A DNA stretch of 24,023 bases from IMG/VR virus record IMGVR_UViG_3300048583_000504, positions 1-24,023 of that record. One strand, 5' to 3'. The position numbers and the translations under genes were made by a program. This document shows positions 1 to 24,023 of this stretch, one piece after another. The notes below the pieces were generated by a model. It saw only the letters and a program-made list of their open reading frames with translations, was not told where the DNA came from and did no database searches. The stretch comes from a virus. The first letter of the stretch is position 1; every line of letters begins with the position of its first letter.

Positions 1-3000
1 CCAGGAGCGATGTTGCCGGTAGCTTGGAGAGCGGCGTATGTCCGGTTCAGAGCGCCCAGCAGCCCGTCCACGTTATCGATGTCGTTGATCATCGCCTGCG
101 TGACGGTATCGCCTTCGGCAATATCTTGCAGGGCAAGAATACCGTCCCGCGTGATGCCGCTGTTAGGCTGCCGGCTGATATGAAAGGTCAGTGCTCGCGA
201 GGCTTCAAAGCGCTGGCTCTGGGTCAACCCCGCCATTCCACGCACCGTCACTGCAATACGAAACGCCTGGTTCCAGGTATGAATCGGAGAAGTGGTCTCC
301 GTGAGCTGAGCACGAACCAGATCCAGCCCAGACGAAGCGCCCGCCGGCAGCAAGCGCCGGCGGATGTCGCGGATCTCAGAATCTTCGAGCGGATTGAGAT
401 CGTTGCCGTGGTCGAGCAGCGCTTGCCGATCGGCAGCAGAAAGCTCCGGTACGAGCGCGAGCGCTCGATCGATCTCGTTCTGGGCTTCGGTGATGACAGC
501 TTCGTTGTCCTCGCCCATGATGTCGATGCGACTGCTTTCAAGCCGAGAGATCATTTCGTCGAAGCGATCGCCTACAGCGCGAGTGTTGTAGCCAAAGCTC
601 TGGTCGGCAGCAGCCAACGCAGCACGATCATCGTCGGTGATGTTGTCACCGCGAACCACGCCCCACAGTGCAGAACGTGCATCTACGTTGATTACACCGC
701 CAGTTTGACGCAGGCGAACGGCAATAGAATCCCACAGAGCGTCGCGCTCGTGGGTAGGCAGCGCAGAGTTGCTCAGGACATCGGCATTGCGCCGAGCGAT
801 TGCCCAGATTTTTGCCGCGGAAGCGTTCTCTGGAATCGGCTCAAGCTGCACGCCTTGCGGAGCCGGAGCCGCCGGATCAGAGGGCCCTGGCTCAAGCGTC
901 GTGTCCTGTCCCGTCTGACCGTAGCCGTACTGCGCATCCGCGGCAGCGAGCGCAGCACTTCTCGCGGCACTAACAGGATCTCCTGCTGCGATGTTGAACA
1001 GCGCAAGCCTTGCGTCTGACGAGCCAATCGGGCCGCGCAGCAGCGCAGCATACGAGTCGCCCATTGCTATGATACTTGCGTCCCCTTTCAGACCTGCAGC
1101 GGCAATACGATCCGCATTGCGCCGAGCAGCCGCCCATACCTCTGCGTCAGGGGCTCCCACCGGAGGCATAGGCTCCAGATTCAAATCAGGTGCGGCAGCT
1201 TCGTTGAGCAAACGATCGATTTCATTCTGCACTACAGAGCTGACTTGCGGGTTAAACGGCTGCGTTGACCAGATTTCTTCAAGCAGAGTCTCGCGCACCT
1301 CGGCGCTCAGCAGCTGCAGCCTTTGGATCAGCGCAGCGAGACTTTCAGCGTCGTAGTCAGCAGCCGGAGAGACAAGCTGACCAAGCAGCGACCGCAGCTC
1401 CGCGACCGTACCTTCGACGCTTGTGATTGGAGCGAGCGCAGGCGCAGCCACCGGAGCGGCGGGCGCAGGCGCAGGCGCAGGCGTCGCGGCCGGGGTCTCA
1501 TCGCGAATTTGCTGAGCGACCTCCGGGCTGTAGCTGACCACCTGGTCGTGACCGAACACGTTGCGCAGGGTGCGAGCGTTGTCGCCGGTCTGATCCATGC
1601 GGATGACCAGGCTGTCGTAGCCACTGTCGAGCAGGTACTGGCGCAGCGCCTGGGTTGCCGTGAGCACTTCCTGCTCCGACAAGCCCGAGAGATTCGGATA
1701 CGGCCAGTTCGCGCCTGTCATGGTCAGGTAGCGCCACTGCGCATCGGTCTCGATGACCAGCGGATCTCGCAGGCTCACGGTATGCGTGTTCACTGTGCCG
1801 TAGCCGGCGGCGTTCTCAGGCGTGTCAGCGAAGTAGGTGCCCTCGCCAGCGATCGGAACCTGCACGTCGGTGTAGATCACGTTCGGGTCACCGCCGCTGC
1901 CCCGCGGCAGGGTCAGCGTCACCGGCTGCGAAGTGCGCACTGCGGCAAGCGGGCTCGCAGAAACCACCGGAGCGGCGGGCGCAGGCGCAGGCGCAGGCGC
2001 AGGCGCAGGCGCAGCCACCGGAGCGGCGGGTGCAGGCGCAGCCACCGGAGCGGCGGGCGCAGGCGCAGCCACCGGAGCGGCGGGCGCAGCGACCGGAGCG
2101 GCGGGCGCCGTCTGCGACGCGAACTCCGCCGCGGCTCGCGTCAGGATATTCAGCACATTGTCCGGCGCCATCGTCGTGTTCGGCAGGTAAGCCAAAATGC
2201 GCGAGATCAGGCGCGAGAGCACCTCAAGAATGGTGCTGGTCGGCGCCGCGTTGAGTCGAGCGATCGCACGTTGCGCAGCAGCCGGCACGTTGGGGCCCAG
2301 CGGCGTGCGAGCGGCGAGCGCCAGGAACTCAGGGTTCATCAGCTCCGCCAGCATTTCCGAGCGCACGCCGCGGCCGTAATCGTACAGGCCGTACACCTGC
2401 CTGCCGTTGGCCACCGTCCTCATGCGCTGGTGCAGGAAGCGCATCAACGCCATCAGGTCACGCGATTCGGGCGTGGTCGAGGAAGCAACACGCGACAAGC
2501 CTTTCTCAGTCAGCGAGTGCATGACCTCGTGGTTCACCGTCGTCGCCGTGCCGAAGGCGCCGATCTTGATCGAGTGAGAGGCTGCGTCGTAATAGCCCAG
2601 CGTCCGAGAACCGCTCCTGGTTCCAGTTCCCAGACGTGCGCTGAACCGAAGCGCCGGGAAGGGCGTGCCGCTGGCACGGAACAGCTCCAGCAAGCCCGAC
2701 GCCGCCTGCTGGTTCACCACGCCGGCGGTCGGATCGCCGGCCATGACGCTCAGCACCTGCGGAATCGGTGCCGATGCCTTGACCGCTGGAATCCAGCGAG
2801 CCAGCGGGTTGTTGTGGCTCAAGCGCAGGCCTATGCCCAGCGTGCGCACGAAGTAGCCGCCGGGATCTTGCGTCGGATCGAGCACCGGCGGGCCACCGCG
2901 GTTGACGGTATCGGTGATTCGCTCGGGCGGGGCGTCCCTCAAAATGTCGCCTGCAGCAGACAGCGCCAGGAACGGATTGACCGTCATGCCGCGAGCCTGG

Positions 3001-4793: not shown

Positions 4794-5737
4794 TACAGCA
4801 GCGCCAGGTAGCGATTGATGCTCTTGTCGAGCGCCTCGGGCAGCGGCATGTCGGGCATGAAGTCCTCTCCGAAGAAGTCAGCGACGGCCCGCTCGCGCAT
4901 GTTGCCTACGTCGGTGCGCAGGCCGTCCGCCAGGGCCTGATCATCTTCCTCGGAGGGCTCAGGCAGGTCAATGGGGCCCAGCGCCTCGGGAGCCGCTGCC
5001 GGGCTCAGAGCCGCGATCAGGCTGTTGACCGCTCCTGGCGCGGTGGCCGGCACCGAAGGCGGAGCGATCAGCCCTGCCGCCGTCACCGCAGGGCTGACCC
5101 CTGGCGCGACCGGCGCTGCAGTGACCGCCGGCGACGCAGCAGGCGGCGTCGCCGCGGTCTGCGCCGGCGGGGTCATCGGCGGCAGCTGCTGCAGCCAGGA
5201 AGGCAGCGCCGTCATGTCGCGCAAGCTGGGCGCGGCGGCGGGCGGCGGGCCTCCTGCCAGTACGCCGGTCGTGTTGGCGTTGAGCTGATTCATCACGAAC
5301 TCCATCGAGCGTCTTTTCTGCGGGTAGGTACTCGACGGCAAGCTGGCCCAGGCGCCGCCGCTTCTCGCGATCGCGGTCTGCCAGTCAGCGTTCGCTACGG
5401 CGTCAAGCGCACCGGCGCGGCGCAGCAGCTCGATCGCTACCAGGTCTTGCGAGCGCGGGCTGAAATCCTTGAGGCCGAGCTTGCTCGACACGTCATCCCA
5501 GGTGCTCAGCGTGATCTGGTAGCGGCCAGCGGCGCCGGTCTTGTTTTTCTTGCCGTCGGTCTGGGTGAAGGCGTGCAGCACCCGCGGATGATCGTCCAGC
5601 TTGGCGATCTTGCCGCCGCCGAACGCCGTGCGGTAGCCGTGCGTCTGCGTCGCTTCGGCCGCAGAAATCATGTCGAGATACCGCCGCACGTTCGGGTTGT
5701 TGAGGTACGGCTCCACCCTTTCAAGACGAGAGGCCAT
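4793..5737 (-). CDS. GH104 (lambda R-like) lytic transglycosylase, virion-associated, 314 aa
   Basis: Cleaves the MurNAc-GlcNAc bond of peptidoglycan without water, forming anhydro-muramoyl ends. Residues 1-~160 match phage lambda R protein closely: Glu28 in MISAAEATQTHGY corresponds to the catalytic Glu19 of lambda R, and DHPRVL, TGAAGRYQIT (68-76), LGLKDFSPRSQDLVA (87-101) and WASLP (130-134) are all conserved family blocks. Residues ~165-250 are a Pro/Ala/Thr linker. The C-terminus (250-314) is an acidic helical segment ending in DKSINRYLALL. Lambda R is 158 aa, so the extra half is unusual for a soluble endolysin. Together with its place in the ejection cluster this suggests a virion enzyme that opens the cell wall for DNA entry. 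AAGGAG sits 11 bases upstream, and the start overlaps the previous stop (TGATG). The endolysin alternative is not excluded. Confidence 0.9.
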   Translation of the reverse strand: MASRLERVEPYLNNPNVRRYLDMISAAEATQTHGYRTAFGGGKIAKLDDHPRVLHAFTQTDGKKNKTGAAGRYQITLSTWDDVSSKLGLKDFSPRSQDLVAIELLRRAGALDAVANADWQTAIARSGGAWASLPSSTYPQKRRSMEFVMNQLNANTTGVLAGGPPPAAAPSLRDMTALPSWLQQLPPMTPPAQTAATPPAASPAVTAAPVAPGVSPAVTAAGLIAPPSVPATAPGAVNSLIAALSPAAAPEALGPIDLPEPSEEDDQALADGLRTDVGNMRERAVADFFGEDFMPDMPLPEALDKSINRYLALL

Positions 5738-7287
5738 CAGCGGGGTACTCCTTTTGCCTTCGCCGCGATCAGGTTGTTGCGTGCCGCCAGCAACTCCACG
5801 ATCTCAGCTTCCGAGCCTGGCACCGCGGCGAGCGCCCGCATCCGGCCTTCCAGCCCGTTGATGTAGGCATCGACCATGCGCGGGGACTCGCGGTTGCGAG
5901 CCTCGGCCCTTTCGAGCGTAGCACCGGCGGCGAGCGCCGGCTTCATTGCCTCGGCAGCCCAGGCCGCACCAGCGGCGGGGTTGAACGGCGGCTTGATCGC
6001 CTGCTGCAGCCACGTTGACGGGGCTACTATCGGCTGCCGGGGAACAGCTGCAGCCGCAGGAGCGCCCGCACCGATGGTCTGCACCTGCGCCGCGGCGCTC
6101 GCGCTGGGCAGGGCCTGGTCGCGCACGACCTTGAGCTGCACCAGGGCTTCGGGAACCTGCGTGCGCAGCTCCTGGAGCCGCTTCTGGGTCTGTTCGAGCA
6201 CCAGCGGATCAGCGCCGTTGACCGGCACCAGCCGCGGAGCAATTCCGTAGCGCACATCGATTGCGCTGAGCGGCGCCGGCGTGGCGTTTGCGGCCAGCCA
6301 GTTTTTCAGGTTGGCTTCCTCGGCAGCCAGGGTGTCGTAGGCGGTCTGCAGCGCCGGCAGCTGGCTCTGCAGCTCGGCAATCCGGGCGGCAGGGGTCGCC
6401 GCGGCGCCAGGCGTCGCTGCCGCTGCTGTTGCTGCGGGCGCAGCCACCGGCGGCGCGGGAGCGATCGAAATGATCGGCTCCTGTCCAGGCACCGTCGGCA
6501 GCTGCACGCGCAGCACCGTGGTTGGATCGTTGGGGTTGGGGCCTTGGAAAAACCCGCCCGGCTGGCGGGTAAAGCCGCGGAGAAGAAGATCGTTTTCCTG
6601 CTGCTGCCTGGCTGCAGCAAGTGCAGCGGCGTTGGCGGTGTCGATCTGCTCGCGCTGCGTGTTCTCGACCGACACGCCGGCAGAAATTACCGGCACCGCG
6701 CCTGCACCGCCGGCAGCAATCGCGGCAGCGAACCGATCCTGCGGGACGTTCACGCCGGTGGCCAGGATGGTGACCGTGCCGTCCGGGTTGGCCTTATACA
6801 GCTCTCCCTTCGGATCGTAGGTCGCCAGGATCGAGCCGATGTTTCCGCTGGAAGCCGCGATGCGCTTGTCCGAGATCTGGTTGCCCCAGCCCCAGGCATC
6901 GTACAGACGCCGGGCGGCGGACAGCTCGCCGGCATCGACGTACTGCTGCGCGGTGACCTGCGCGGCGCTGCCCAGGCGGGCCAGCACGCGCTGCTGCACC
7001 TCCGGCGAGAACGCCTGGAAGTTCGGATCTTGCAGCACGACGTTGCGCTGCTCGATCATGTAGTCCAGGTCGCTCTGGCCCGCGTTCGCGGCCTGCTGCA
7101 TATTGCCCAGCAGCGTCGCGGTGTACGCCGTGGCGTCGCGATCGTAGCTCTGGCTCAGCGCCTGCTGCTCGCGCTGCTGGCGCTGGAAGGCGAACTCCTC
7201 CTCGCGCTGAGCGCTAAGGCGCTCGGCCTGGATGTCCTGGCGAGCGGCGCGTCGGCCTCGGTAGATCGATGTGAAGTCTATGGCCAT
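5737..7287 (-). CDS. Probable internal virion/ejection protein, coiled coil with Pro/Ala linkers (516 aa)
   Basis: ATG 7287 lies two bases after the previous stop. The N-terminal ~80 residues are Arg/Glu/Gln-rich coiled coil (QREEEFAFQRQQREQQALSQ). Residues ~80-200 form a compact helical domain with LYDAWGWGNQ. A region near 225-330 mixes strands with Ala/Pro-rich linkers (about 275-300). A second coiled coil (IAELQSQLPALQTAYDTLAAEE) follows, then a third near LVLEQTQKRLQELRTQ, and an Ala-rich helical C-terminus. No enzyme motif is visible. Position immediately before the lytic transglycosylase suggests a structural ejection protein. The stop overlaps the transglycosylase start as TGATG. Confidence 0.7.
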   Translation of the reverse strand: MAIDFTSIYRGRRAARQDIQAERLSAQREEEFAFQRQQREQQALSQSYDRDATAYTATLLGNMQQAANAGQSDLDYMIEQRNVVLQDPNFQAFSPEVQQRVLARLGSAAQVTAQQYVDAGELSAARRLYDAWGWGNQISDKRIAASSGNIGSILATYDPKGELYKANPDGTVTILATGVNVPQDRFAAAIAAGGAGAVPVISAGVSVENTQREQIDTANAAALAAARQQQENDLLLRGFTRQPGGFFQGPNPNDPTTVLRVQLPTVPGQEPIISIAPAPPVAAPAATAAAATPGAAATPAARIAELQSQLPALQTAYDTLAAEEANLKNWLAANATPAPLSAIDVRYGIAPRLVPVNGADPLVLEQTQKRLQELRTQVPEALVQLKVVRDQALPSASAAAQVQTIGAGAPAAAAVPRQPIVAPSTWLQQAIKPPFNPAAGAAWAAEAMKPALAAGATLERAEARNRESPRMVDAYINGLEGRMRALAAVPGSEAEIVELLAARNNLIAAKAKGVPR

Positions 7288-11320: not shown

Positions 11321-12094
11321 TCAGTTCGGGATGACAGGCGGAGAGGGGCTGACACCAGGGGTGCCGCCGGGGTCGGGAAGGCCGTTGCCGTTCAAGTCCA
11401 GGTCGGTGCCAGGGCAGCAAGCCAACACCGCGGTCTGCAGCGAAATGAGCTGCGTCTGCAGCGCCGACATTTGATCGTTGATGGTGTCGAGCTGAGCCTG
11501 GAACGAGTTGGTGAGGTCGGTCACGAAGCCCGACATATCCAGGGTCAGCGTCACGATGCCGGTGGCCGGATCTTCCACTGCGGTGAGCGATACACCGACG
11601 GTGCTCACCGGGTTGGCCTGCACAAGCATGACCGGAGGCCATTGCGCCGGTACGGTCTGCAGCAGGCCGTTGACGAACTCGATGCCGATGGTGTTGATGC
11701 TCAGACCACTGCCAGCGCCGGCGTCCACACCGTCCTCGCCGCGGGGGATGCCGAAATTGAGGATGGCGCTGCTCGGCGTGCCGATGTTCACCACCGTTGG
11801 AACAGCGCCTGCAGGCAGGGAGGTGACCGACCCCACGGCGATCGTCGCGTTCGCGCCAGGCGGGCCAGGCGGGCCGTCCAGGCCGTCGCCGCCGCCTCCG
11901 CTGCCACCGCCACCGGTCGGGCAGCACAGGTCAGGGGTATAGACCTGCAGCGCCCCGGCCTGCACGCCGGTGATGCAGCCGTTCTCGACCACGACGGTCG
12001 CGTTGGCGTAGGTGCCGTCGGGCAACACCACGTCGCACCGCGGGAGCACCGGCGGCGGGGTCTGGGGGCAGTCAGGGCACGGGGCGCAGCTCAT
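11321..12094 (-). CDS. Collagen-like/fibre-motif virion protein (257 aa)
   Basis: The start is taken at ATG 12094 (ATGA overlap with the previous gene, AGGA about 9 bases upstream); the frame is open further upstream only over the neighbour. Residues 1-20 hold a C--C--C cluster with Pro. A small strand-rich domain follows, then a Gly linker and a short collagen-like GLDGPPGPPGAN. Next comes the phage-fibre motif seen as AILNFGIPRGEDG, a beta-rich section, a coiled-coil stretch near residues 190-225 (FQAQLDTINDQMSALQTQL), and a Ca-loop-like tail (DLDLNGNGLPDPGG). This is the architecture of a trimeric fibre or whisker attached near the connector. Its position between adaptor and tail genes supports a virion location; receptor binding is not shown. 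Confidence 0.75.
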   Translation of the reverse strand: MSCAPCPDCPQTPPPVLPRCDVVLPDGTYANATVVVENGCITGVQAGALQVYTPDLCCPTGGGGSGGGGDGLDGPPGPPGANATIAVGSVTSLPAGAVPTVVNIGTPSSAILNFGIPRGEDGVDAGAGSGLSINTIGIEFVNGLLQTVPAQWPPVMLVQANPVSTVGVSLTAVEDPATGIVTLTLDMSGFVTDLTNSFQAQLDTINDQMSALQTQLISLQTAVLACCPGTDLDLNGNGLPDPGGTPGVSPSPPVIPN

Positions 12095-13610: not shown

Positions 13611-13814
13611 TCAGGCCAGGTTGTCAGGCGCTTCGGATTCGATGACGACAGAATCCTGCGCTTGCGTGCGCGACTTCACGCCGGCATCTTTCAGGCTCTT
13701 GGCGTTGAAGATCAGTTCGTTGCCACCCTTGGTGGCGAAGCGATGCACGATGTTGCGTGCGTCGGCCGGGATGTTGATCTTGATGCCGTTGACGCGACTC
13801 TGTACGACGGGCAT
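13611..13814 (-). CDS. Hypothetical small protein (67 aa)
   Basis: The start at ATG 13814 is chosen because CAGGAGAACCCT places GGAG 6 bases upstream; an in-frame TTG at 13835 would put the start inside the terminator hairpin. The product is small, soluble and mixed alpha/beta (VNGIKINIPADARNIVHRFATKG), with no cysteine. It is the first gene after the terminator-like hairpin and lies 5 bases before the adaptor gene. The role is unknown; in this position small head-tail joining or assembly proteins are common. Confidence 0.7.
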   Translation of the reverse strand: MPVVQSRVNGIKINIPADARNIVHRFATKGGNELIFNAKSLKDAGVKSRTQAQDSVVIESEAPDNLA

Positions 13815-13833
13815 AGGGTTCTCCTGGTTGGCC

Positions 13834-13862
13834 AAACACCCCCGGCCTTTCGACCGGGGGTG
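13834..13862 (-). terminator. Intrinsic-terminator-like hairpin between head and tail blocks
   Basis: A perfect 9-bp GC-rich inverted repeat (cacccccgg / ccgggggtg) with an 8-base loop. In the direction of transcription it is followed by TTTGG, a short T run. It lies in the 65-bp gap between the 224-aa gene and the next small gene, the longest non-coding stretch in the window. The weak T-tract suggests partial termination, that is, attenuation of tail genes relative to capsid genes, or 3'-end protection of the capsid mRNA. Confidence 0.75.
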
Positions 13863-14566: not shown

Positions 14567-15544
14567 TCAGACCTTGCTGATGGCGACAGCGACGCCATGC
14601 GGGTTGAAAACGTGGGTGTCCCAGACGAACTCACCGACCAGGTAGTCCTCCCACTTGCCTTCGTACCACTTGTTCGTGATGACATCGAAGGCGTGGAGAA
14701 CCTGCATCGGATCGATCAGGACGACGGGGGCCAGGACGCCGGCGGCGCCGAAATCCTGCGGAACGAGCCAGCGGGTCGCCATGAGGCGGAAACCGTACAT
14801 GTTGCCCATGTAGCCGGTCACCATCGCATTGCGATCGGAGCAGCAGGTGTTGAGTTCCTTGAGGTTCTTCAAGGCCCAACGCTGCAGCGCCAGCGGGATC
14901 AGGATCACCGGATCGGCGGTCTCGCCCAGGCTGGACATTTCACCCTCGCCGCACATCAGGCCGGCTTCCTGCGCCACCTGCATCAGCGACAGGATCATTT
15001 CCTCGAAGCCAGCCACCGAGTTGCCGTCCAGCGCGTCGGCGCCCTGGTTGCCCAGGTTGACGCTGTGGGTCAGCATACCGGCCGTGGTGCCCACGTTGTC
15101 CGGCGAGGCCGAGGCGATGATCTTCGGGATCGAGTACGCATCGACCAGCTTGGTGATGTTGCGGGAGATCTGGCGGCGGAGGTTCGCTTCCCAGCGCTCG
15201 AAGTTCGAGCACATCATCCGCTTGTCCTGGTTCGAGATCTTCCACTCGAACTTTTTGGACTGGCAGATGGTCAGCGAGTCGCTGCCGATGCCAGGCCCGG
15301 ACTGCGTTTCGGGATGCTCGTTGTTGTCGGTTTCCATGCCGAACAGGTCGAGATCCTGCTCCGTGCCGAAGATGACCTTCGAGCCGCAGAACAGTTCCTC
15401 GTCGCTCAGGAAGTTCGACTTGGCGATCTGCGGGGTGACCGAGCAGATCTGGTAGTTGTAAACGATCTTGGCGGCGATGCGCGGCGGGGCCCAGAGCGAG
15501 CCTTCGACGCTTTCGTAACCGACGGCGGCATTGTTGCGTGCCAT
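14567..15544 (-). CDS. Major capsid protein
   Basis: A 325-aa protein expected to build the icosahedral shell. Evidence is its position immediately after scaffold, a strong ribosome-binding site (AAGGAG 8 bases before ATG 15544), and a composition typical of HK97-fold coat proteins. The N-terminal arm is followed by a long helix region (RRQISRNITKLVDAYSIPKI) and a mixed domain ending in beta strands. There is no long N-terminal delta domain, consistent with a separate scaffold. Unusually for a coat protein it contains several cysteines, including a CC pair in LKELNTCCSDRN near residue 236. The HK97 fold is inferred from context, since I cannot align it here. Confidence 0.85.
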   Translation of the reverse strand: MARNNAAVGYESVEGSLWAPPRIAAKIVYNYQICSVTPQIAKSNFLSDEELFCGSKVIFGTEQDLDLFGMETDNNEHPETQSGPGIGSDSLTICQSKKFEWKISNQDKRMMCSNFERWEANLRRQISRNITKLVDAYSIPKIIASASPDNVGTTAGMLTHSVNLGNQGADALDGNSVAGFEEMILSLMQVAQEAGLMCGEGEMSSLGETADPVILIPLALQRWALKNLKELNTCCSDRNAMVTGYMGNMYGFRLMATRWLVPQDFGAAGVLAPVVLIDPMQVLHAFDVITNKWYEGKWEDYLVGEFVWDTHVFNPHGVAVAISKV

Positions 15545-15559
15545 GATGGTGCTCCTTGC

Positions 15560-16489
15560 TTAGTTGAGGGAGTCGAGAATTCGTTTTGCCTCGGCGCGAT
15601 CTTCTGCGCGAGGGGAACGCGCCAAACTTTTCGCCTTGTTGACCAATGCCGTGACTTCGGCAGCGGTCTTTTTGGCGTTTACATCGCGGCGCATGTGCGA
15701 ACCAAGAGCCGTGCGGGTATCCGGCGGCTGTCGATCCGAGTTCCGCTCACGGAACTTGGTAATGCGCTTCGCAACGATCTTGGCATATCGATCGACTTCC
15801 TCGGTGCTGGTAGCTTTGAGCAGCGAGGTGATCACACTGTCAACATCATTGTCATCTTCACGCGACCAGGCAATGAAATCCTGGTCGTAAGCCAGCTGCG
15901 CCAACTGGTGCAGCCCGCGGGTCGGATCGGACATCACCTTGGTACGGTGCTGCACGACCTTCTCCGCTTCGCGTTCGGCCAAAACCTGCATCGTCGCGGT
16001 CTTGACATCGACCTTCGGCGCCGCGGTTTTGGCGACGGCCGTGGCAACCTTGGTCATTGCCGCCAGCACAAGTGGGTCAATATCCTGAATTTCCTCCGGC
16101 GTCAAGATCTGGTCGAGCTGGAGCCCCGGTTTCGAGGCGTCGATCTGCGCCTGGAGCGCGTCGAGCTGGGCCCGGAGCTGGGCCTCGGTGTTGACCCGCG
16201 CCTGGCGCTCACCTTCCCACAGCTGCCGGTATTCTTCCTGGCCCTGCTGCGCCGGCGCAACCCGACCCTGCATCATCGCGAGCTGCCGGCGCAGGTCAGC
16301 GATCTCCTGCTGCTCCGCGGTCATGCGGTTGGGAGCGGGATCATCGTCCTGGTCATCGTCGTCCTGGTCGTCCTCGTCGTCGCGGGCGTTGGGCTGGGTC
16401 TGCTGCATCGGCGTGCCGTCGGGGTTGAGACCGGAGCGACGCAGCTTGTCGGCTTCACGCTGCTGGGCAAGTTCAAGGGCGGTAGGCAT
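15560..16489 (-). CDS. Capsid scaffolding protein
   Basis: This 309-aa protein probably directs prohead assembly and is then removed. It is predominantly helical and highly charged. Residues 37-50 are almost all Asp/Glu/Gln. A coiled-coil-like Gln/Leu/Arg region follows (about 56-120, with EIADLRRQLAMMQ and AQLRAQLDALQAQI). The C-terminal part is basic (RSPRAEDRAEAKRIL), as is usual for scaffolds that bind coat protein through a C-terminal basic helix. It sits directly upstream of the major capsid gene, the usual place for a scaffold. GGAG lies 8 bases before ATG 16489. I see no protease domain, so scaffold removal by exit rather than self-cleavage is plausible. Confidence 0.85.
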   Translation of the reverse strand: MPTALELAQQREADKLRRSGLNPDGTPMQQTQPNARDDEDDQDDDDQDDDPAPNRMTAEQQEIADLRRQLAMMQGRVAPAQQGQEEYRQLWEGERQARVNTEAQLRAQLDALQAQIDASKPGLQLDQILTPEEIQDIDPLVLAAMTKVATAVAKTAAPKVDVKTATMQVLAEREAEKVVQHRTKVMSDPTRGLHQLAQLAYDQDFIAWSREDDNDVDSVITSLLKATSTEEVDRYAKIVAKRITKFRERNSDRQPPDTRTALGSHMRRDVNAKKTAAEVTALVNKAKSLARSPRAEDRAEAKRILDSLN

Positions 16490-16522: not shown

Positions 16523-16747
16523 TCAGCTCTGAGCGGTCGTGGGAGCCTTGGTAATGTGGGTGATGAATTTCTCGACACCTTCGGCCAGGCCGGACTGACG
16601 AATCAGCACAGCAGGCTCGTTGGTGTGGTACAGCTGACGCAGTGCATCGGTTGCGTAGTCGCTGGCCAACTCTTTCAGCAGCCCGGCAAGGCGCTCATCC
16701 AACGCGAGCGCCTTGCGAACTTCGTACAGCCGCTGATCGCGAGTCAC
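16523..16747 (-). CDS. Hypothetical helical protein (74 aa) before scaffold
   Basis: Starts at GTG 16747, overlapping the previous stop (GTGA), and ends 33 bases before the scaffold gene. The composition is that of a soluble helical protein (DERLAGLLKELASDYATDALRQ), with no Cys, signal peptide or membrane segment. The function is unknown. Position suggests a minor head-assembly factor. The 3' end includes one arm of an imperfect hairpin (16515-16540) that lacks a T-tract. Confidence 0.7.
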   Translation of the reverse strand: MTRDQRLYEVRKALALDERLAGLLKELASDYATDALRQLYHTNEPAVLIRQSGLAEGVEKFITHITKAPTTAQS

Positions 16748-16902
16748 TTCTTACGACCGCACGACGCGCACGGGCGGGTCAGCGGGGCCGGACGATCACC
16801 CGACGGGCGCCGATCCGACGTGCTCGGGATCGAGCGCGGCGAGGGCGTCTTGCTGATGGTCTTGACCACCTTCGGGCCACTGGTGTTGAAATACTTGTTC
16901 AC
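16744..16902 (-). CDS. Small basic protein (52 aa) with C-terminal CxxC
   Basis: A short gene starting at GTG 16902, supported by an excellent AAGGAG 7 bases upstream. The product is rich in Ser, Pro, Arg and Lys, probably disordered, and ends in CASCGRKK, a lone CxxC that could bind metal or form a disulfide. The stop overlaps the next start as GTGA. No function is recognisable. The low complexity makes it a weaker coding call, but the ribosome-binding site and the exact fit between its neighbours favour a real gene. Confidence 0.65.
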   Translation of the reverse strand: MNKYFNTSGPKVVKTISKTPSPRSIPSTSDRRPSGDRPAPLTRPCASCGRKK

Positions 16903-16918: not shown

Positions 16919-19900
16919 TTACGGGCACTCGACGCCCAGGCTGATGAAGATTTCATCGAGGGTGACGGTATCGTCTGCCACCGGTTCACCGACGCGCCGC
17001 ACACTCAGCGTGCCGTTGATGTTTCCGGCGACCGGGCCGGGGCCGTTGACCTCCCAACGGTAGATGCGCGTGGTGCTGGCCAAGAGCCAAACACCGCGAG
17101 CTGCACCAGAGGAAACCACCGGGCCGACTCCGCCGCCATCGAACCGCACCTCATAGTTGGCCGGGTCTTCGCCGGCCGGCATCCAGGTGAAGTTCGAGGA
17201 GCCCAACCCGCCAGGGGTTACCTGCATTTGACCGCTGGGCAGCATCGCAATCTGGTAGCTGCTCTGGCCGGTGGACGGGCTATCGACGATGCAGTCACCG
17301 CCCAGGCTGTTCGGCAGCGAGGGCAAGGCAATCTCGTCGTCGAGCACCGTCACGCAGGCCGGGCCCGAGAGCGAGAGCACCCGCGGGTTGGGCTGGATGG
17401 TGCCGCACAGCTCGCGGTCGCCGTCGGCTCCTGGCGTGTCTGGGTGGTTCACCGGCCAGTAAACCAGGTTCTCCCCGATGCCGAAGGTCACCAGCTCGTT
17501 CGGGAAGTTGTGCAGCGCCTGCTCGGAGCCGCTGTAAACCACCGTCAGGGTCAGCGGCGTACCGGTGACCGGAGCGTCGAGCAGAATCGACCACACGCTT
17601 GTGCCGCCTTCGGTCACCGGGGTGTTGACCTGGATGGTGGCCGAACCAGCGATGGATTCGTCGTCGATGACCGTGGCGCACACCGCCGCGGGGATGGACG
17701 CAAGCCGCACGTTCGGCAGCACCTGCAGGCAGAGCTGGCGATCGCCGTCCACGACGTTGTTGTCCAGGGTGGTCACGCAAAGCTGACCGGAGCTGGAGCC
17801 AATCGGGATGGTCACGCCAGGAGCCGGGTAGCTGTTGGCTGCCTGCTCGGCACCGCTGAGCACACCGATGATGTTCAGCGGAGCGCCGGCCACCGGGGTG
17901 TTGAGCGTCACCGTCCAGCAGAACTGCGAGCCTTCGTTGGCAGCCAGCGGCGTCACGACGACCGACACGACGTTGTGCGTCGAGGGGAAGTCGTTGTTGA
18001 GCACCGTGGCGCAGACCGGGGGCGGCGCGGCCGTGATGCGCGGCGTGAGCTGCACCGCCAGGCACAGGTCGCGGTCGGGGTTGATGACCGAGCTGTCGTT
18101 GGTCTGCACGCACAGCTGCACCGAGCTGAGCCCAGGCACAATCACGCCGGTCGGGGCTGCGTAGCCTTCGTTGACCTGCTCCTGGCCGCTGAGCACGCCC
18201 GTCACGGTGACGGGCGTACCTGTCACAGGTGCATCGAGCGTCACCGTCCAGCAGAAAGTGCTGCCTTCCGGGCCGCTGGTCGGAGCCACGGTGACCGAAG
18301 CCACGGTGTGCACGGAGTCGCCAACCGGAATGTCGTCGTTGAGCACCGTGACGCAGACCGGGGCTGGGGCGCTGATGATACGAGGCGCAGGCTGTACGGC
18401 CAGGCAGAGCTGACGGTCGGGGTCGATGACGGCGTTGGGGTTGGTGGTCACGCACATCTGCCCAGAGCTTGCGCCGACCGGGATGGTCACGCCTGGGAAC
18501 GGATAGTTTTCGTTGGCCTGCTCCTGGCCGCTGAGCACGCCGACCAAGGCCAACGGCGAGTTGACCACCGGCCCGTCGAGAGTGACCGTCCAGCAGAACT
18601 GCGACCCTTCGGCGGCAGCCAAGGGGGTCGCAACCACCGAGAGCACGTTGTGCAGCGAATCCACTGGCGGGGCCACGTCGTTGTCCAGGACGTTGATGCA
18701 GACCGGAGCCGGCGCAGCGGTCACCCGCGGCGACAGGAGCGCGTTGAGGCAGAGCTGCAGGGTCGGCTCGACCACGGCGTCGTCGAGCGTCTGGACGCAC
18801 ACCTGGCCCGACGTAGCGCCATCGGCCAGCACCAGCACCGGCGGGGTGTAGCCGTTGACGACCTGCTCGGAGCCCGACAGGTCGAAGTTGATGGTCAGCG
18901 CACCCTCGGCCACCGGGCCGTCCAGGGTCACCGTCCAGCACGCCTGCTCGCCCTCGGTGATGCTGGCCGCGGTCGGCACGACCGACACGATGGTATGCAC
19001 GGACGGCTGCGGGCCCACCACGTCGTTGTCGATGACGGTCGCGCAGACCGGCGGCAGCTCGTTGATGATGCGCAGGTTGGGCAGCAGCTTGAGGCACAGG
19101 GCGCGGGGGCCTCCGACCAGGGCGTCGTCCTCGGTCAGCACGCAAAGTTGACCGGAGTTTTGTCCAGGCTGGATGAGCGCAATCGGGTGGGGGTAGTTCT
19201 TGGTGTCCTGCTCCGCCCCGGACAGCAGGCCGGCGATGACCAGGGGCTGCCCGACCACAGGCGCGTCGAGCTGCACCGTCCAGCAAAACAGGGTGCCTTC
19301 CGGGCCAGGGTTCGGGGCGACGGTCAGACCGACGATGGAGTGCTGGGAGTTCTCGCAGAACACCGCGGTGGGCACCCAGCGCAGACGACCGCAATTGTTC
19401 ACTTCCTGGATCTGCAGCAGGTCGTTGACGCAGCGGCGCACGCCGGTGTCTTGCCAGACCTGCAGGTAGCCGGCGTTGGCCCAGCGGCGATCGCCGCACT
19501 GGTTGGTCTGCTCGACCTCGACCGTGAGGCCGTCCTCCAGGCAGCGCACGCTCGGCGTGTCCACCCAGAGCTGGGGCGGGCCTGGGGCCCAGCGGCGCTC
19601 GCCGCACTGGTTGGTCTGCTCGACCTCGGTAGCGACGCCGCCGGGCAGGCAGCGCAGGTTGGCGGTGTCCGTCCAGACCTGCCCGCCAGGAACCGATGTC
19701 CAGCGTGTGCGGCCGCACTCGTTGACCTCCTCGATCTCCAGGGTGGTCTGGTCGGCGGCGCAGCGGATGTTGCCGGTCGGGAGCCATTGCTGGTCGTCGT
19801 CGGCGTAGTAGATCGGCGGGCAGCCGCGCAGCACGTCGTCGAGATCCTGGGTGTGGGTCTCGTCCGTCCAGACCGTGACCAGGCCCAGGTCGAGCCCGGT

Positions 19901-20230
19901 GCCGTGGTACACCAGGCGCATCACCGTGCCCTGGGGGAAGTCGAGCACGACCACCGGATTCTGCGGGGTCAGGCGCACCGGGCGCTGGGTCAGGGCCTCG
20001 CACGCCGGGCATTGCAGTTCCTGCACTCCCTCGATCACGCCAGGGCCGGCTTCGCTGACGCGGCAGCCGCAGACGAATGACCGGGCGCCAGGGGCGACCT
20101 TCACGATCTCGAAGGTAATGAAGTCGCCCGGCTCCATGCCGACCGCCATGAAGGTGCGCTGCCGCGTGATCTCGAACGTGGCGGAGTCGAGATTGGCCGA
20201 AAGGGAGTTGAACAGGACGATCCGACTCAT
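16919..20230 (-). CDS. Calx-beta-like repeat virion protein (1103 aa), probable head fibre or decoration protein
   Basis: The start is taken at ATG 20230: it overlaps the previous stop (ATGA) and has GGAG 9 bases upstream. The frame is open further upstream, but only over the previous gene. Domains in order: residues 1-~142 resemble the 132-aa neighbour; ~142-290 hold four ~37-residue Trp/Cys repeats of the form W-DT---RC ... E-E-TNQCG-RRW; ~294-968 hold six ~112-residue Calx-beta-like repeats (EG--CWTV-LD-PV ... SG-EQ---NY--P ... G--SGQLCV-T ... LCL ... PVCATV-DND); ~970-1103 form a Gly-rich C-terminal domain. Calx-beta domains are calcium-binding beta-sandwiches found in adhesion proteins; calcium binding here is inferred from the conserved Glu and the Asp-rich junctions. 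The placement before scaffold and capsid suggests a head-attached appendage. A tail adhesin is the alternative. Confidence 0.85.
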   Translation of the reverse strand: MSRIVLFNSLSANLDSATFEITRQRTFMAVGMEPGDFITFEIVKVAPGARSFVCGCRVSEAGPGVIEGVQELQCPACEALTQRPVRLTPQNPVVVLDFPQGTVMRLVYHGTGLDLGLVTVWTDETHTQDLDDVLRGCPPIYYADDDQQWLPTGNIRCAADQTTLEIEEVNECGRTRWTSVPGGQVWTDTANLRCLPGGVATEVEQTNQCGERRWAPGPPQLWVDTPSVRCLEDGLTVEVEQTNQCGDRRWANAGYLQVWQDTGVRRCVNDLLQIQEVNNCGRLRWVPTAVFCENSQHSIVGLTVAPNPGPEGTLFCWTVQLDAPVVGQPLVIAGLLSGAEQDTKNYPHPIALIQPGQNSGQLCVLTEDDALVGGPRALCLKLLPNLRIINELPPVCATVIDNDVVGPQPSVHTIVSVVPTAASITEGEQACWTVTLDGPVAEGALTINFDLSGSEQVVNGYTPPVLVLADGATSGQVCVQTLDDAVVEPTLQLCLNALLSPRVTAAPAPVCINVLDNDVAPPVDSLHNVLSVVATPLAAAEGSQFCWTVTLDGPVVNSPLALVGVLSGQEQANENYPFPGVTIPVGASSGQMCVTTNPNAVIDPDRQLCLAVQPAPRIISAPAPVCVTVLNDDIPVGDSVHTVASVTVAPTSGPEGSTFCWTVTLDAPVTGTPVTVTGVLSGQEQVNEGYAAPTGVIVPGLSSVQLCVQTNDSSVINPDRDLCLAVQLTPRITAAPPPVCATVLNNDFPSTHNVVSVVVTPLAANEGSQFCWTVTLNTPVAGAPLNIIGVLSGAEQAANSYPAPGVTIPIGSSSGQLCVTTLDNNVVDGDRQLCLQVLPNVRLASIPAAVCATVIDDESIAGSATIQVNTPVTEGGTSVWSILLDAPVTGTPLTLTVVYSGSEQALHNFPNELVTFGIGENLVYWPVNHPDTPGADGDRELCGTIQPNPRVLSLSGPACVTVLDDEIALPSLPNSLGGDCIVDSPSTGQSSYQIAMLPSGQMQVTPGGLGSSNFTWMPAGEDPANYEVRFDGGGVGPVVSSGAARGVWLLASTTRIYRWEVNGPGPVAGNINGTLSVRRVGEPVADDTVTLDEIFISLGVECP
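17325..19350 (-). repeat. Six tandem Calx-beta-like coding repeats, period ~335-347 bp
   Basis: Repeat starts lie near 19349, 19002, 18657, 18318, 17983 and 17642. DNA similarity is visible: a string containing accgtccagca recurs near 17910, 18245, 18580, 18925 and 19277, where it codes for the CWTV strand. Copies 1-5 each have four cysteines; copy 6 (about 17325-17642) keeps only the last two. Such repeats are prone to copy-number change by recombination and to assembly collapse. Confidence 0.8.
19360..19812 (-). repeat. Four short Trp/Cys repeats (~37 aa) in the Calx-beta protein
   Basis: Four in-frame copies encode the pattern W-DT---RC-----EVEQTNQCG-RRW. The two middle copies are the most alike at DNA level: the string coding for EVEQTNQCG recurs near 19495-19525 and 19607-19635. 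Each copy carries two Cys and two Trp, suggesting a small disulfide-stabilised module. I do not recognise the family. Confidence 0.75.
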
Positions 20231-20625
20231 GGCGTGACTCCGCAGGGGCAACCGCGCAAGCGATCGTTGACGTTCTGGGTGGTGGTTTCCTGGAACATGA
20301 CCGACTGCGTGCTCGGGGTGTCGGTGTCGAGCTTGGCTCGCATCGTGACGCCCTGGGGCGCATCGAGCACGACGAACGGGTTGTCGCGGGTCAGCACGAC
20401 GGGGGTGCCGCAGCACAGCAGCTGCACTTCGTCGAGCACCGACGGCAACACGACCTGGCCAGGAGGACAGGTGCAGGGGTCACGCGCCGGCGTGGTCTGC
20501 AGCACCAGCCAGAGCGTCACTTCGTCGAGAGGCTCCAGGCCCAGGGCGACGATCGTGATCTGGTGGCGGATCTCGAAGGTCGGAGAAACACCATCGAGCG
20601 TATCGCGATTGATGATCTGTCTCAC
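20227..20625 (-). CDS. Hypothetical virion protein (132 aa), stand-alone copy of the next gene's N-terminal domain
   Basis: Starts at a GTG that overlaps the previous stop (GTGA) and has GGAG 8 bases upstream. The protein is beta-rich and aligns end to end with the first ~140 residues of the following 1103-aa protein. Both have FEI-R-Q near the N-terminus, a G-EP-D- step, a cysteine pair in the middle, LT--NP-VVLD-PQG--MR, and a C-terminal D-LRGCP. This implies a tandem gene duplication with one copy fused to a repeat array. The function is unknown. The position between portal and scaffold genes and the pairing with a large repeat protein suggest a head-surface or vertex protein or a partner of the larger protein. 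It contains a CC doublet (LLCCG). Confidence 0.8.
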   Translation of the reverse strand: MRQIINRDTLDGVSPTFEIRHQITIVALGLEPLDEVTLWLVLQTTPARDPCTCPPGQVVLPSVLDEVQLLCCGTPVVLTRDNPFVVLDAPQGVTMRAKLDTDTPSTQSVMFQETTTQNVNDRLRGCPCGVTP

Positions 20626-20906
20626 GAGGGGAACTCCGCTACGATGTTGTCCATCAGCCGTTGGTACTTGGTGATGTTCTGGAACGGCAGGTCAAGCCGA
20701 AGCGGCTCGTGCCAGAACACAACCCGCACCCCGTTCACGAAACCACCTTGCTGCACGAAAATGATGCGCGTCTGGCCGTTGGCGCCGGTCAGGCGCAGCT
20801 TGGCCGAGCCGCCGTCGAAGCCTTCCACCACGCCCCAGGCCTTGAAGCCGGTGTGGTACAGCGGGTCGTCGAGCAGGACGTGACGGCCGGCGATCATAAT
20901 GCTCAT
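20622..20906 (-). CDS. Hypothetical protein (94 aa) after portal
   Basis: A small protein of unknown function, translationally coupled to portal through an ATGA overlap. No good Shine-Dalgarno sequence lies upstream of 20906, which fits re-initiation. An internal ATG at codon 4 (20897) is an alternative start. The sequence looks like a compact beta-rich fold with alternating hydrophobic residues (GSAKLRLTGANGQTRIIFVQ) and a C-terminal helix. It has no signal peptide or membrane segment. Its position among head genes suggests a small head or connector component, but nothing in the sequence proves this. Confidence 0.7.
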   Translation of the reverse strand: MSIMIAGRHVLLDDPLYHTGFKAWGVVEGFDGGSAKLRLTGANGQTRIIFVQQGGFVNGVRVVFWHEPLRLDLPFQNITKYQRLMDNIVAEFPS

Positions 20907-22945
20907 ATGGAGGGGCCTGGAATGGAGATCGGGGAGGCGCCGGAGGGCGAGGCGACGTTGGCCTGGGCAGCGGCACCGCTGCGGCCGTCAAGCGCCGGCA
21001 CCTGGGGCCCGCCGGGGGTGGAGCCGGCGGTCGGTTGCCCTGCAGCCACGGCAAGAGCGCGGTCTATGGCGGGGTCTGACATGCCCAGCGCTTCCACGGG
21101 GAAACCGGCCTGTTCCAAGAGGTTGCGCACAGCGTAGCGCACCGCCTGCTCGGGGACAACCTGGGCCGCGGCCGGGCTGAGCAGCAGCGGCAGCACCGCC
21201 TGCTCGCGCTGGATGCGCTCGTCCTCCCGCAGCAGGCCGGTCATGCCGCGCACCAGCACGCCCACGTCCTGCCCCGCGGAGAAGTCTTTTTCCGTGGTCA
21301 TCTTGTGGTTGAACAGGCCTGTGAAGGCCGGCTCGATGAAATACATGTCCTCGTTGAGTGCCGACTGCTTGATCGTGCGCAGCGCGTTGGTCATGCGCTG
21401 GGAATACTCGCCCAGGGACGAGCGGCCGAAGTCCTGGGCGCCGTAGGCGAACGCCGGGATACCGCAGTCCTCGTCGGCCTGGCGCAGGATGGCTCCCACC
21501 TGGGTCATCAGCAGGTGGTACTGCGCCGATACCGTCTGGATCGGGCGCACCGGTTCGGGCATCGAGCCGGAGGTGGCCCAGCGATCCTCGACCTGGTAGC
21601 TGCCGCCGGGGACGATGTTGCGGGCGTCGTTGGGGTTCTCGAACACCGAGGGGTTGGTCAGCAGCGGCGGGCGCGATGACCAGTCGGCGTTGTGCTCGAA
21701 CAGGTGCATCAGGCGATTCACGCGCTGCTCGGAATCCCAGAGCATCGCGCCCATACCCAGGTAGTCGTAGAGGTTGTCACCGATCTTGTTGAACGGAGCG
21801 CCGAAGTAGGAGCGATCGGCGCCGCCGGGCATCCGCAGCAGCCGGCACTTGATGGTGCGGGCGCCGCAGACTTCGATGCGGGCCGAAACGTAGTCCATCG
21901 GGTCGATGCCGTCGATGCCGTACTCGCGCAGCTCGTCGCCAGAGAAGTAGCCCTCGTGGATCAGCAGCGGGATGGTCTCGTCCAGGCCCCACCAGCCGGC
22001 GTCGCGGTCGTGCTGGTCAGCATCGAGCCAGTTGCGCGTGCGGAACGCGAACTCCTCCAGGATCTTCTCGATCTGGGCGCTGAAAAAATGCTCTTGCTTG
22101 GCCATGCTGATCAGCTCGGCCTTGGTGATCGACGTGCGCTCGGTGTTGCCGGTGTTGGTCTGGTAGTCGATCGCGTCGCAGATCGGAAAGAAATCAAACA
22201 CCCGGACATGCCGGAACCAGGGCGAAGTGACCCATTCGAGCCTGGCCTTGCCGCTGCGGCCGTGCACCAGCTTGGGCTTACGCTGCCAGTCCGGGAAGCG
22301 CATGATGCCGATGCCGTGCAGCGCACGGTCGAAGCTGTAGGCGGCGTAGGCCTGGCGGAAACCGCCTTCGACCATCGTGTCGCGCATGGCGGTCTGGGCG
22401 ATGCGAGCTTGTGACGCAGCCAGGCCGACGATCCGCGCCTGCTCTACTTGCTTGAGCGCCATGACCTGCTCGCGCAAGAAGTCATTGATGCGGTCGTTAG
22501 GTTCGCCGTCGGCGGTAAGCAGCAGGCGCGGGTCTGCGATGCCTGCATCCAGCATCCGCTGGCGGAGCTGGGCTCGCACGCCGCGGCGAATTCGGTCGAG
22601 ACTGTCCTTGTCCAGGTCAGGATTCGGAGAAGGGGTCACCGTGAACATCGAGTCGAGATTGTTCACGATCAGGTCATTCGACCAGGCCACCGTGGCGTTG
22701 ACCTTTTGCTGCACGATGCCGAGATACCGGGACGGACAGAAGCCGAAGGCAGCCTGCATTTCGGCCGCGTCCTGGCTGGTGTATTCGCGCCGGTACTGCT
22801 TGTCGGCTCGCTCCATCAAGGTCTCGGCCGTGTGCTTTTGATGCACGACGTACACGCCGCGATATTCTTTCGCACGCCGATAGCGTTCGAGCACTACGCC
22901 GGCCAGGCTGTCTTGCTGCTCTACATTCGTTTCAACGCTGGCCAT
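20903..22945 (-). CDS. Portal (head-tail connector) protein
   Basis: This 680-aa protein should form the dodecameric ring at the unique capsid vertex that docks the terminase and the tail. I chose the ATG at 22945 because it overlaps the terminase stop (TAATG) and has GGAG about 10 bases upstream. An ATG three codons earlier at 22954 would leave almost no spacing to that site. Supporting features are its position directly after terminase, its size (in the range of large podoviral portals), the long Gln/Arg-rich helical N-terminus, and a central segment around DYLGMGAMLWDSEQRVNRLM that resembles the stem/wing region of such portals. The C-terminus is rich in Ala, Pro, Gly and Ser and probably disordered. 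The last codons overlap the next gene as ATGA. Confidence 0.85.
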   Translation of the reverse strand: MASVETNVEQQDSLAGVVLERYRRAKEYRGVYVVHQKHTAETLMERADKQYRREYTSQDAAEMQAAFGFCPSRYLGIVQQKVNATVAWSNDLIVNNLDSMFTVTPSPNPDLDKDSLDRIRRGVRAQLRQRMLDAGIADPRLLLTADGEPNDRINDFLREQVMALKQVEQARIVGLAASQARIAQTAMRDTMVEGGFRQAYAAYSFDRALHGIGIMRFPDWQRKPKLVHGRSGKARLEWVTSPWFRHVRVFDFFPICDAIDYQTNTGNTERTSITKAELISMAKQEHFFSAQIEKILEEFAFRTRNWLDADQHDRDAGWWGLDETIPLLIHEGYFSGDELREYGIDGIDPMDYVSARIEVCGARTIKCRLLRMPGGADRSYFGAPFNKIGDNLYDYLGMGAMLWDSEQRVNRLMHLFEHNADWSSRPPLLTNPSVFENPNDARNIVPGGSYQVEDRWATSGSMPEPVRPIQTVSAQYHLLMTQVGAILRQADEDCGIPAFAYGAQDFGRSSLGEYSQRMTNALRTIKQSALNEDMYFIEPAFTGLFNHKMTTEKDFSAGQDVGVLVRGMTGLLREDERIQREQAVLPLLLSPAAAQVVPEQAVRYAVRNLLEQAGFPVEALGMSDPAIDRALAVAAGQPTAGSTPGGPQVPALDGRSGAAAQANVASPSGASPISIPGPSI

Positions 22946-24023
22946 TAGCCCCATGCTCCGCGGTTGGTGGGTGCGTTCCTGCGCCTCAGTATGTCACCGA
23001 GGCGGGTCTTGTCAAATTGCTGCAGCTCCTCGGTGCCGCGGCCTTGGATCGCCATCGGCTTGCCGGTGGCGTTCCTGCCGGCGACGTACAAGCCGCGGGT
23101 CATCAAGGCGCTGCAGTAGTGCGATGACCAGTCATGCACCGGGTTCTTCGACATCACCCGCTTTTCTTTGTCGTAGGTGAAGTGGTAAGCCTCAAGCGCT
23201 TCGAGGATGAAAGCGCAATCGTCCATCGGGTCGTCCACCGGGTTTTCGTGGACGTTGATTTCCATGTTGTTGATGAGCCTGGCGCCGGCGGCGATGCTAT
23301 CGCTCAGCGCCACGTTGGGCATCCGATCGAAGTTCAGCCCGAGCTTCTTTGCCGTGCTCATGCGCGTGACGCCGTTGAGGCCCCACTCGCGGTGGGCGAT
23401 GTCGTGCGGGCCCAGGTGGCGGTGGTAGAAGTAGCGCTTCGAGGCCAGGATCTCAGCGTAATGCTCGATACCGGTGTCGGAGCTGGAGTACCAGTCGAAC
23501 AGTCGGTGCGCGTTGCCCACGAGCTGCCAGAACAGGATGACGTTGGTATCGCCCACGCCCAAGTCCCAGGAGGTGTCCACCGGATACCGTGGGTCGTAGC
23601 GCAGCGGCAGGGCCCGGCCCTCCTGGCGCAGCCGCTTGATCTCGGCGCCGAACACCGCGCCCATGACAGCGGCGTCCCACTCGCACAGGTACTCCTGGCG
23701 GAACAGCGAATCGCCCAGGGTCGCGCCGTAGAGGTCGATGTAAACCTTGCGCTCCAGCGCGAGCTGCATCGCGCTGAACACGTCGGTGTCCTCGGCAGAA
23801 AGCCGCTGCACGAAAGCGTCGGGCTGGTTGGTGTAGGTCTGGAACAGCTTGTAAAAGTGGTTGCGCCCGCGAGGCGAGCTGATGTGCACCGACCAGCCGT
23901 TGTTCTCCAGCAGGATCGGGCGGAAGAAGCCGAAGGCGTTGGGGTCGGCCAGCGCCGCTTCGGAGAACGTCATGCCCACGGGGGTCGTGCCGACCAGGGC
24001 GTTGTAGTTGTCGCTGCCCAGCG
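22945..24023 (-). CDS. terL: Terminase large subunit, C-terminal part (5' end beyond window)
   Basis: This is the DNA-packaging motor subunit, which cleaves and translocates phage DNA into the prohead. About 358 codons are visible. The reading frame stays open to the right edge of the window, so the N-terminal Walker A/B ATPase lies outside and the in-frame GTG at 23979 is not the true start. The visible part opens near the end of the ATPase domain and contains an RNase H-fold nuclease. The first acidic motif reads DTSWDLGVGDT (about 23545-23577). A middle acidic pair (DDCAF) follows near 23220, and a late HDWSSHYCSAL motif near 23110-23140 matches the usual third nuclease motif. The stop codon overlaps the portal start as TAATG. 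The order terminase-portal-scaffold-capsid downstream supports the call. Family assignment is from motifs only. Confidence 0.9.
   Translation of the reverse strand, partial: LGSDNYNALVGTTPVGMTFSEAALADPNAFGFFRPILLENNGWSVHISSPRGRNHFYKLFQTYTNQPDAFVQRLSAEDTDVFSAMQLALERKVYIDLYGATLGDSLFRQEYLCEWDAAVMGAVFGAEIKRLRQEGRALPLRYDPRYPVDTSWDLGVGDTNVILFWQLVGNAHRLFDWYSSSDTGIEHYAEILASKRYFYHRHLGPHDIAHREWGLNGVTRMSTAKKLGLNFDRMPNVALSDSIAAGARLINNMEINVHENPVDDPMDDCAFILEALEAYHFTYDKEKRVMSKNPVHDWSSHYCSALMTRGLYVAGRNATGKPMAIQGRGTEELQQFDKTRLGDILRRRNAPTNRGAWG

Follow-up and report, generated by a model that had tools for sequence, protein, structure and literature searches.

A predicted modular adhesion fibre with Calx-beta-fold repeats, encoded in a variable gene slot of a podophage group

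The stretch of viral DNA analysed here (IMG/VR record IMGVR_UViG_3300048583_000504, positions 1 to 24,023; 24,023 nucleotides, hereafter the window) carries a minus-strand gene for a repeat protein of 1103 amino acids (aa), located within a block of head genes. The product is probably a virion-attached adhesion fibre, because a constant anchor bears an exchangeable, repeat-built ectodomain in a genomic slot of adhesin-type genes. An earlier interpretation made from the letters alone (the sequence-only reading) had proposed a long calcium-stiffened fibre, possibly for attachment, placed on the capsid or portal vertex because of the position of its gene; a modular adhesin- or fibre-like protein with Calx-beta-fold repeats of variable number is indeed what we find, but the argument from genomic position is weakened. 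The gene is a complete open reading frame (ORF; ATG at 20230, stop at 16919), in agreement with the coordinates proposed before, and its product comprises an N-domain (aa 1-139), Trp/Cys repeats (149-290), units of ~112 aa (295-969) and a C-domain (970-1103). The same gene is present on a second virus contig, L002 (99.99% across 11 kb). Its guanine-cytosine (GC) content by codon position (0.66/0.49/0.88 in the minus frame) resembles that of the portal and major capsid protein (MCP) genes, and on the basis of this pattern an overlapping plus-strand ORF of 1174 aa was rejected as an artefact of GC-rich codon structure.

Relatives were collected by portal, anchor and MCP profile searches, with the virus of L002 counted apart. 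This identified seven other distinct virus contigs (L004, L005, L006/L009, L007, L008, L011 and L027) that, as far as each one reaches, share a fixed gene order: terminase, portal, a 94-aa protein, a 132-aa protein, a variable slot, small genes, scaffold, MCP, a 224-aa protein, a 74-aa protein and tail genes. The slot ranges in size from ~3.4 kb to ~10 kb, and the anchored protein within it differs from virus to virus. There are four Trp/Cys repeats and six Calx-beta-like units in the window, eight and three in L004, about six and three in L008 (whose contig contains a frame break), and four and five in L011. L009 has six Trp/Cys repeats, no Calx-beta-like unit and a different C-terminus; L007 has five and none, with a separate 564-aa protein containing both repeat types; and L027, again with a C-terminus of another kind, combines about six Trp/Cys repeats with a collagen shaft (PF01391, E 1e-14). 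A constant N-terminal anchor thus carries a variable ectodomain across related phages, as expected of a modular fibre, and the copy-number variation that had been suggested as a check is present (6, 3, 3, 5 or 0 Calx-beta-like units; 4-8 Trp/Cys repeats). The frame change in L008 (9890-9905) splits its array between units 2 and 3, and is either a sequencing error or a real frameshift.

Other genes in the slot of the relatives encode lectin-like domains (Laminin_G_3 and F5/8 type C), a He_PIG Ig domain, a beta-propeller-like module and, judged by eye, a YadA-head-like repeat protein. Endolysins of different families are also found there (PF11860, PF00959 and a weak GH19). The slot of the window contains the repeat gene but lacks an evident lysis gene. 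Since the slot carries both fibre- or adhesin-type and lysis genes, a position among head genes does not by itself imply a place on the capsid. Several slot proteins, including Ig-like and propeller-like ones (L011 7533-8267, L009 10961-12724), begin with an NGLxxxxPxD motif that resembles the 74-aa gene behind the MCP gene (window 13611-13835), with weak support from a hidden Markov model (HMM; E 0.001-0.003 in a six-protein search); these proteins and the 74-aa gene may form a second pair of bare and long anchors. Adhesin-type genes occur outside the slot too, as in L007, where a protein upstream of the terminase (5635-6819) has Big_9/cadherin-like and DUF285 repeats.

Comparison of the window with L005 revealed a jump in DNA identity inside the anchored gene. 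From the portal gene through the 94-aa and 132-aa genes to the N-domain it is 69-81%, and in Trp/Cys repeat 1 it is 67% (67-72% for N-domain and repeat 1 taken together); in repeats 2-4 it rises to 92-96%. The simplest reading of this alignment would be a recombination breakpoint within the Trp/Cys array; an assembly chimera at the contig end could also have produced it, and contigs may break within repeats.

The six tandem units of ~112 residues described by the sequence-only reading were recovered at aa 295-969. They are pairwise 27-65% identical, with unit-to-unit alignment scores of 129-380 compared to a maximum of 59-67 in 1000 shuffles. An AlphaFold2 model of unit 3 (predicted local distance difference test, pLDDT, 96.9) was compared with the PDB, and the best matches were dominated by CALX CBD1, NCX1 CBD1 and related Calx-beta domains (template modelling score, TM, 0.57-0.69, E ~1e-3; CALX CBD1 up to 0.69), with the top two by E-value being other proteins of lower TM. 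On the strength of this model the units are predicted to adopt the Calx-beta fold, an Ig-like beta-sandwich. The label Calx-beta-like therefore holds at the level of fold, but Pfam does not recognise the units: PF03160 gave no match to the whole protein at E<=1 (gathering cut-off of 27 bits not reached), and among 18 single units aligned from the window and its relatives it matched one, at E 0.21. The nearest Pfam family by score was LapA PF20579 (E 0.0012; 13.1 bits for the window protein against a cut-off of 27), which the anchor protein of L011 just passes with 27.4 bits.

Within the 18-unit alignment, two pairs of cysteine columns co-vary. Columns 23 and 73 are both occupied in 10 units and both empty in 8, and columns 89 and 108 are both occupied in 14 and both empty in 4; by chance such co-occurrence would be expected at 2e-5 and 3e-4, respectively, assuming independent units, which holds only partly. 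Because neither pair shows an exception, two disulfides per unit are likely. The acidic residues are also patterned, with the glutamates E18 and E48 invariant in all 18 units and columns 78, 79, 83, 113 and 115 acidic in 13-15. They form, in order, an EG near the start, an acid mid-way, a DDxxxE and a terminal DxD, the order expected for Calx-beta calcium sites (CALX and NCX1 ligands). All acidic calcium positions are kept in just one of the six window units, unit 2, and the set is degenerate in the other five, which supports the idea of calcium stiffening only in part; the co-varying cysteine pairs point to disulfides.

Between the anchor and these units lie the four Trp/Cys repeats noted previously, each of ~36 aa, with alignment scores of 64-123 against a shuffled maximum of 44. 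Seven residues (W, R, C, C, G, R, W) are invariant in 16 such repeats, and a tandem repeat is also visible in the DNA at 19478-19681. No solved structure matched them. A weak scytovirin match (PF20888, E 0.004 and 0.0007) lay below the cut-off and was set aside, as single Trp/Cys repeats did not match this family. No significant family was found for the 1103-aa protein in Pfam, PHROGs or NCBIfam, and its sole tblastn match in INPHARED was the host-specificity protein of Xanthomonas phage LucasX (24% identity, E 3e-5).

The N-domain is a paralogue of its neighbour, the 132-aa protein (BLASTP, 41% identity, E 2e-16). In all seven relatives the anchor family occurs twice, with the bare copy first and the long copy next (profile search; L005 and L027 agree), and in L011 an extra gene separates the two. 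The sequence-only reading had mentioned neither this paralogy nor the separate C-domain. At the other end, the C-domain is shared by the relatives with Calx-beta-like units; three of its five members touch phrog_11610 (E 0.007), a family without assigned function.

These observations suggest a model in which the protein would be part of the virion. The N-domain would dock on the particle, most likely at the same kind of site as its bare 132-aa copy, and the Trp/Cys repeats would form a short disulfide-bonded beta stalk. Beyond it, the six Calx-beta-fold units would make a rod of roughly 25 nm (estimated at ~4 nm per unit), stabilised by two disulfides in each unit and probably also by some calcium. 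Displayed at the far end, the C-domain would attach to a component of the cell envelope or to some other surface, and productive adsorption would become more likely. In addition, recombination may find a foothold in the stalk repeats, such that the outer part is swapped among related viruses and the anchor is kept.

Several results weigh against an adhesion fibre anchored in this way. The 132-aa anchor family had no annotated homologue in 50,697 phage records, and the anchor profile, like that of the MCP, found no relative in the bacterial/archaeal genome set. When the C-domain profile was compared with the PDB, only chance-level WD40 matches were obtained, identifying neither a fold nor a ligand for the putative tip. 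Moreover, a 246-aa collagen-like protein (GPPGPPG; NFGIPRG motif), encoded between two tail genes (window 11321-12061, minus strand) and kept in relatives, is a candidate for a second, short fibre. In favour of the fibre reading, G002, G004 and G005 showed no further long fibre-like gene between the scaffold gene and the last gene of the structural operon; the gene calls came from a simple codon-usage screen, which excludes other receptor-binding proteins only in part.

Placement on the head or on the tail are both sub-cases of the adhesion-fibre reading, and the sequence does not decide between them: the fold hint leads to the head, and the module types together with the missing tail fibre lead to the tail. 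For the head, it is quite conceivable that the N-domain is a capsid decoration domain, making the protein a Hoc-like capsid fibre for loose surface attachment and the 132-aa protein an ordinary decoration protein. An AlphaFold2 model of the anchor with the Trp/Cys repeats (pLDDT 87; predicted TM score 0.48) has, among the PDB matches listed for the anchor, its highest probability with the 7-7-1 capsid decoration protein (9hz8 chain 0; probability 0.84, TMt 0.44, 135 aa), and the Milano counterpart of that protein, 8fwg u1, is also among those listed. The anchor is similar in length to decoration proteins and its genes stand among head genes. The 7-7-1 (135 aa) and Milano beta-rich decoration proteins bridge capsomers as dimers (PMC12796354; PMC10491603), and there are precedents for capsid fibres that contain Ig-like or collagen-like parts (PMC7602432). 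However, the Foldseek E-value of 0.16 is not significant; hhalign found nothing between the anchor family and the 7-7-1/Milano decoration family, using a shallow profile of four sequences; the 224-aa gene behind the MCP gene, in the usual place of a decoration protein, competes as a candidate; and gene position is uninformative in a slot with lysis genes. The fold match is thus a weak lead to the capsid rather than proof. Among viral predictions, the best match of the anchor model was a protein of 150 aa from an uncultured podophage (E 3e-5, TMt 0.64); a second phage of this kind, ctUS21, has matches of 150 aa and 485 aa that recall the pair of bare and long copies. The 224-aa gene is itself duplicated in G002 (19059-20517).

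For the tail, there is a fair case, short of an even chance, that the anchor binds the portal or adaptor ring, and that this podophage relies on the protein as its main receptor-binding fibre, on the portal vertex or tail tube, with the gene relocated from near the tube gene. The collagen and lectin folds of the slot are typical of tail fibres, and no other large fibre gene was found in the structural operon. Among the podophages related by the tube protein that were used for comparison, which infect Pseudomonas and Aeromonas, Skulduggery has large genes just upstream of its tube gene and in phiARM81mr a 'tail tip fiber protein' follows it, whereas in the present group only the 246-aa collagen-like protein lies upstream. 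Together with the lack of another long fibre-like gene in the structural operon of relatives, this comparison suggests that most surface-binding proteins come from the slot. Nevertheless, the anchor resembles none of the known tail adaptors or fibre anchors, and the 246-aa protein could itself be the tail fibre.

It is improbable that the product is a non-virion protein, secreted or placed on the cell surface during infection as an adhesin left on the host or as a decoy: Calx-beta-type repeats are common in bacterial adhesins and the LapA adhesin repeat is the nearest Pfam family by score, but the protein starts with MSRIVLFNSLSANLD, with no signal peptide evident by eye, its gene lies inside a structural operon, and its paralogue is encoded by a small, conserved gene close to that of the portal.

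Returning to the virion-attached fibre, we tentatively propose a history for it. The group may have duplicated a capsid-surface (or portal-vertex) protein, with the second copy, encoded between portal and scaffold, becoming a display platform that swaps Calx-beta rods, Trp/Cys stalks and collagen through recombination in the stalk array; the resulting adhesion fibre would be borne on the head, and its outer part would evolve apart from the tail.

Table 1. Coordinates of the repeat-protein gene, its domains and neighbouring genes in the window
Feature	Position	Strand	Basis
Repeat-protein gene	16919..20230	-	complete ORF, codon-position GC, present in L002
N-terminal anchor domain, aa 1-139, paralogue of adjacent 132-aa gene	19814..20230	-	BLASTP, alignment in relatives
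Trp/Cys repeat 1	19679..19786	-	HMM search
Trp/Cys repeat 2	19568..19675	-	HMM search
Trp/Cys repeat 3	19457..19567	-	HMM search
Trp/Cys repeat 4	19361..19456	-	HMM search
Calx-beta-like unit 1, aa 295-406	19013..19348	-	HMM search, alignment
Calx-beta-like unit 2, aa 410-521, acidic set complete	18668..19003	-	HMM search, alignment
Calx-beta-like unit 3, aa 525-636, AlphaFold2-modelled	18323..18658	-	HMM search, alignment, model
Calx-beta-like unit 4, aa 639-749	17984..18316	-	HMM search, alignment
Calx-beta-like unit 5, aa 750-860	17651..17983	-	HMM search, alignment
Calx-beta-like unit 6, aa 861-969, one Cys pair absent, most divergent of the six	17324..17650	-	HMM search, alignment
C-terminal domain, aa 970-1103, common to Calx-bearing relatives, candidate tip	16922..17323	-	alignment
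132-aa protein, bare copy of anchor domain	20227..20625	-	BLASTP; in all relatives, homologue next to the anchor protein or nearly so
94-aa conserved protein after portal gene, constant left border of variable slot	20622..20906	-	synteny
Two small genes (52 aa, 16744-16902; 74 aa, 16523-16747), constant right border of slot	16523..16902	-	synteny
Portal gene	20903-22954	-	
Scaffold gene	15560-16489	-	phrog_4866, E 0.0006
MCP gene	14567-15544	-	position only

The gene had been described as lying between portal and scaffold; this is correct for its order (Table 1), but it adjoins neither, being separated from the portal gene by two small genes (94 aa and 132 aa) and from the scaffold gene by two more. 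In G003 and G004, tblastn did not detect one or other of the small right-border genes. Neither the 132-aa protein nor the MCP had a tblastn match in INPHARED, and the nearest annotated relatives of the portal were HMO-2011-type podophages (21-25% identity). The last structural gene of the window (3-4793, minus strand) and its counterpart in L015 (29-6478) encode a very large protein whose long, Ala/Pro-rich repeats (APAAPVAAP; VAAPETPAPTAP) vary among relatives. In G003 (59,189 bases), parts of this gene match both contig ends, which suggests a complete, circularly permuted genome of ~59 kb.

The protein can be compared with several known systems. Its units share with CALX CBD1 and NCX1 CBD1 the predicted fold (AlphaFold2/Foldseek) and the order of acidic clusters, but unlike Calx-beta domains of PF03160 they belong to a phage protein and have two co-varying cysteine pairs, an acidic set that is mostly incomplete in the window, and scores below Pfam recognition. 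The LapA/RTX extender repeats (PF20579) likewise form a tandem beta-sandwich extender of variable copy number, and in RTX adhesins these extenders are calcium-stiffened (PMC7493085); the window protein differs in scoring below the family cut-off, in lacking a type I secretion or retention context and in its location in a phage structural block. The capsid fibres Hoc of T4, pb10 of T5, gp17 of N4, gp8.5 of phi29 and the decoration and linker proteins of 7-7-1/Milano similarly join an anchor to an elongated ectodomain of beta-domains or collagen-like sequence, and a role in loose host attachment has been proposed for such fibres (PMC7602432). In Milano, a short linking protein resembles, in the N-terminal strand, a longer protein that bears Ig (PMC10491603), an arrangement reminiscent of the bare and long anchor copies described here. 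However, none of the capsid-fibre examples compared here has a Calx-beta fold or a Trp/Cys array, and no sequence relation to the 7-7-1/Milano decoration protein was found. HMO-2011 encodes a 763-aa hypothetical protein in a similar place, between the portal and the protein preceding the MCP, but this protein (gp49) lacks these repeats as judged by eye, and the annotated tail-fibre genes of that phage lie beyond the MCP. A literature search, with most subscription journals outside its coverage, did not turn up any report of Calx-beta proteins in phage virions.

Taken together, these comparisons support a model in which the protein would be an adhesion fibre of a phage that combines a rod of Calx-beta fold with an anchor from a separate family. 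The analysis identifies a hypervariable adhesin slot in a podophage group without a close annotated isolate, where a constant anchor and exchangeable repeat arrays make the evolution of host recognition traceable in sequence data. It also provides a concrete test case for whether the head or the portal vertex can bear adhesion fibres.

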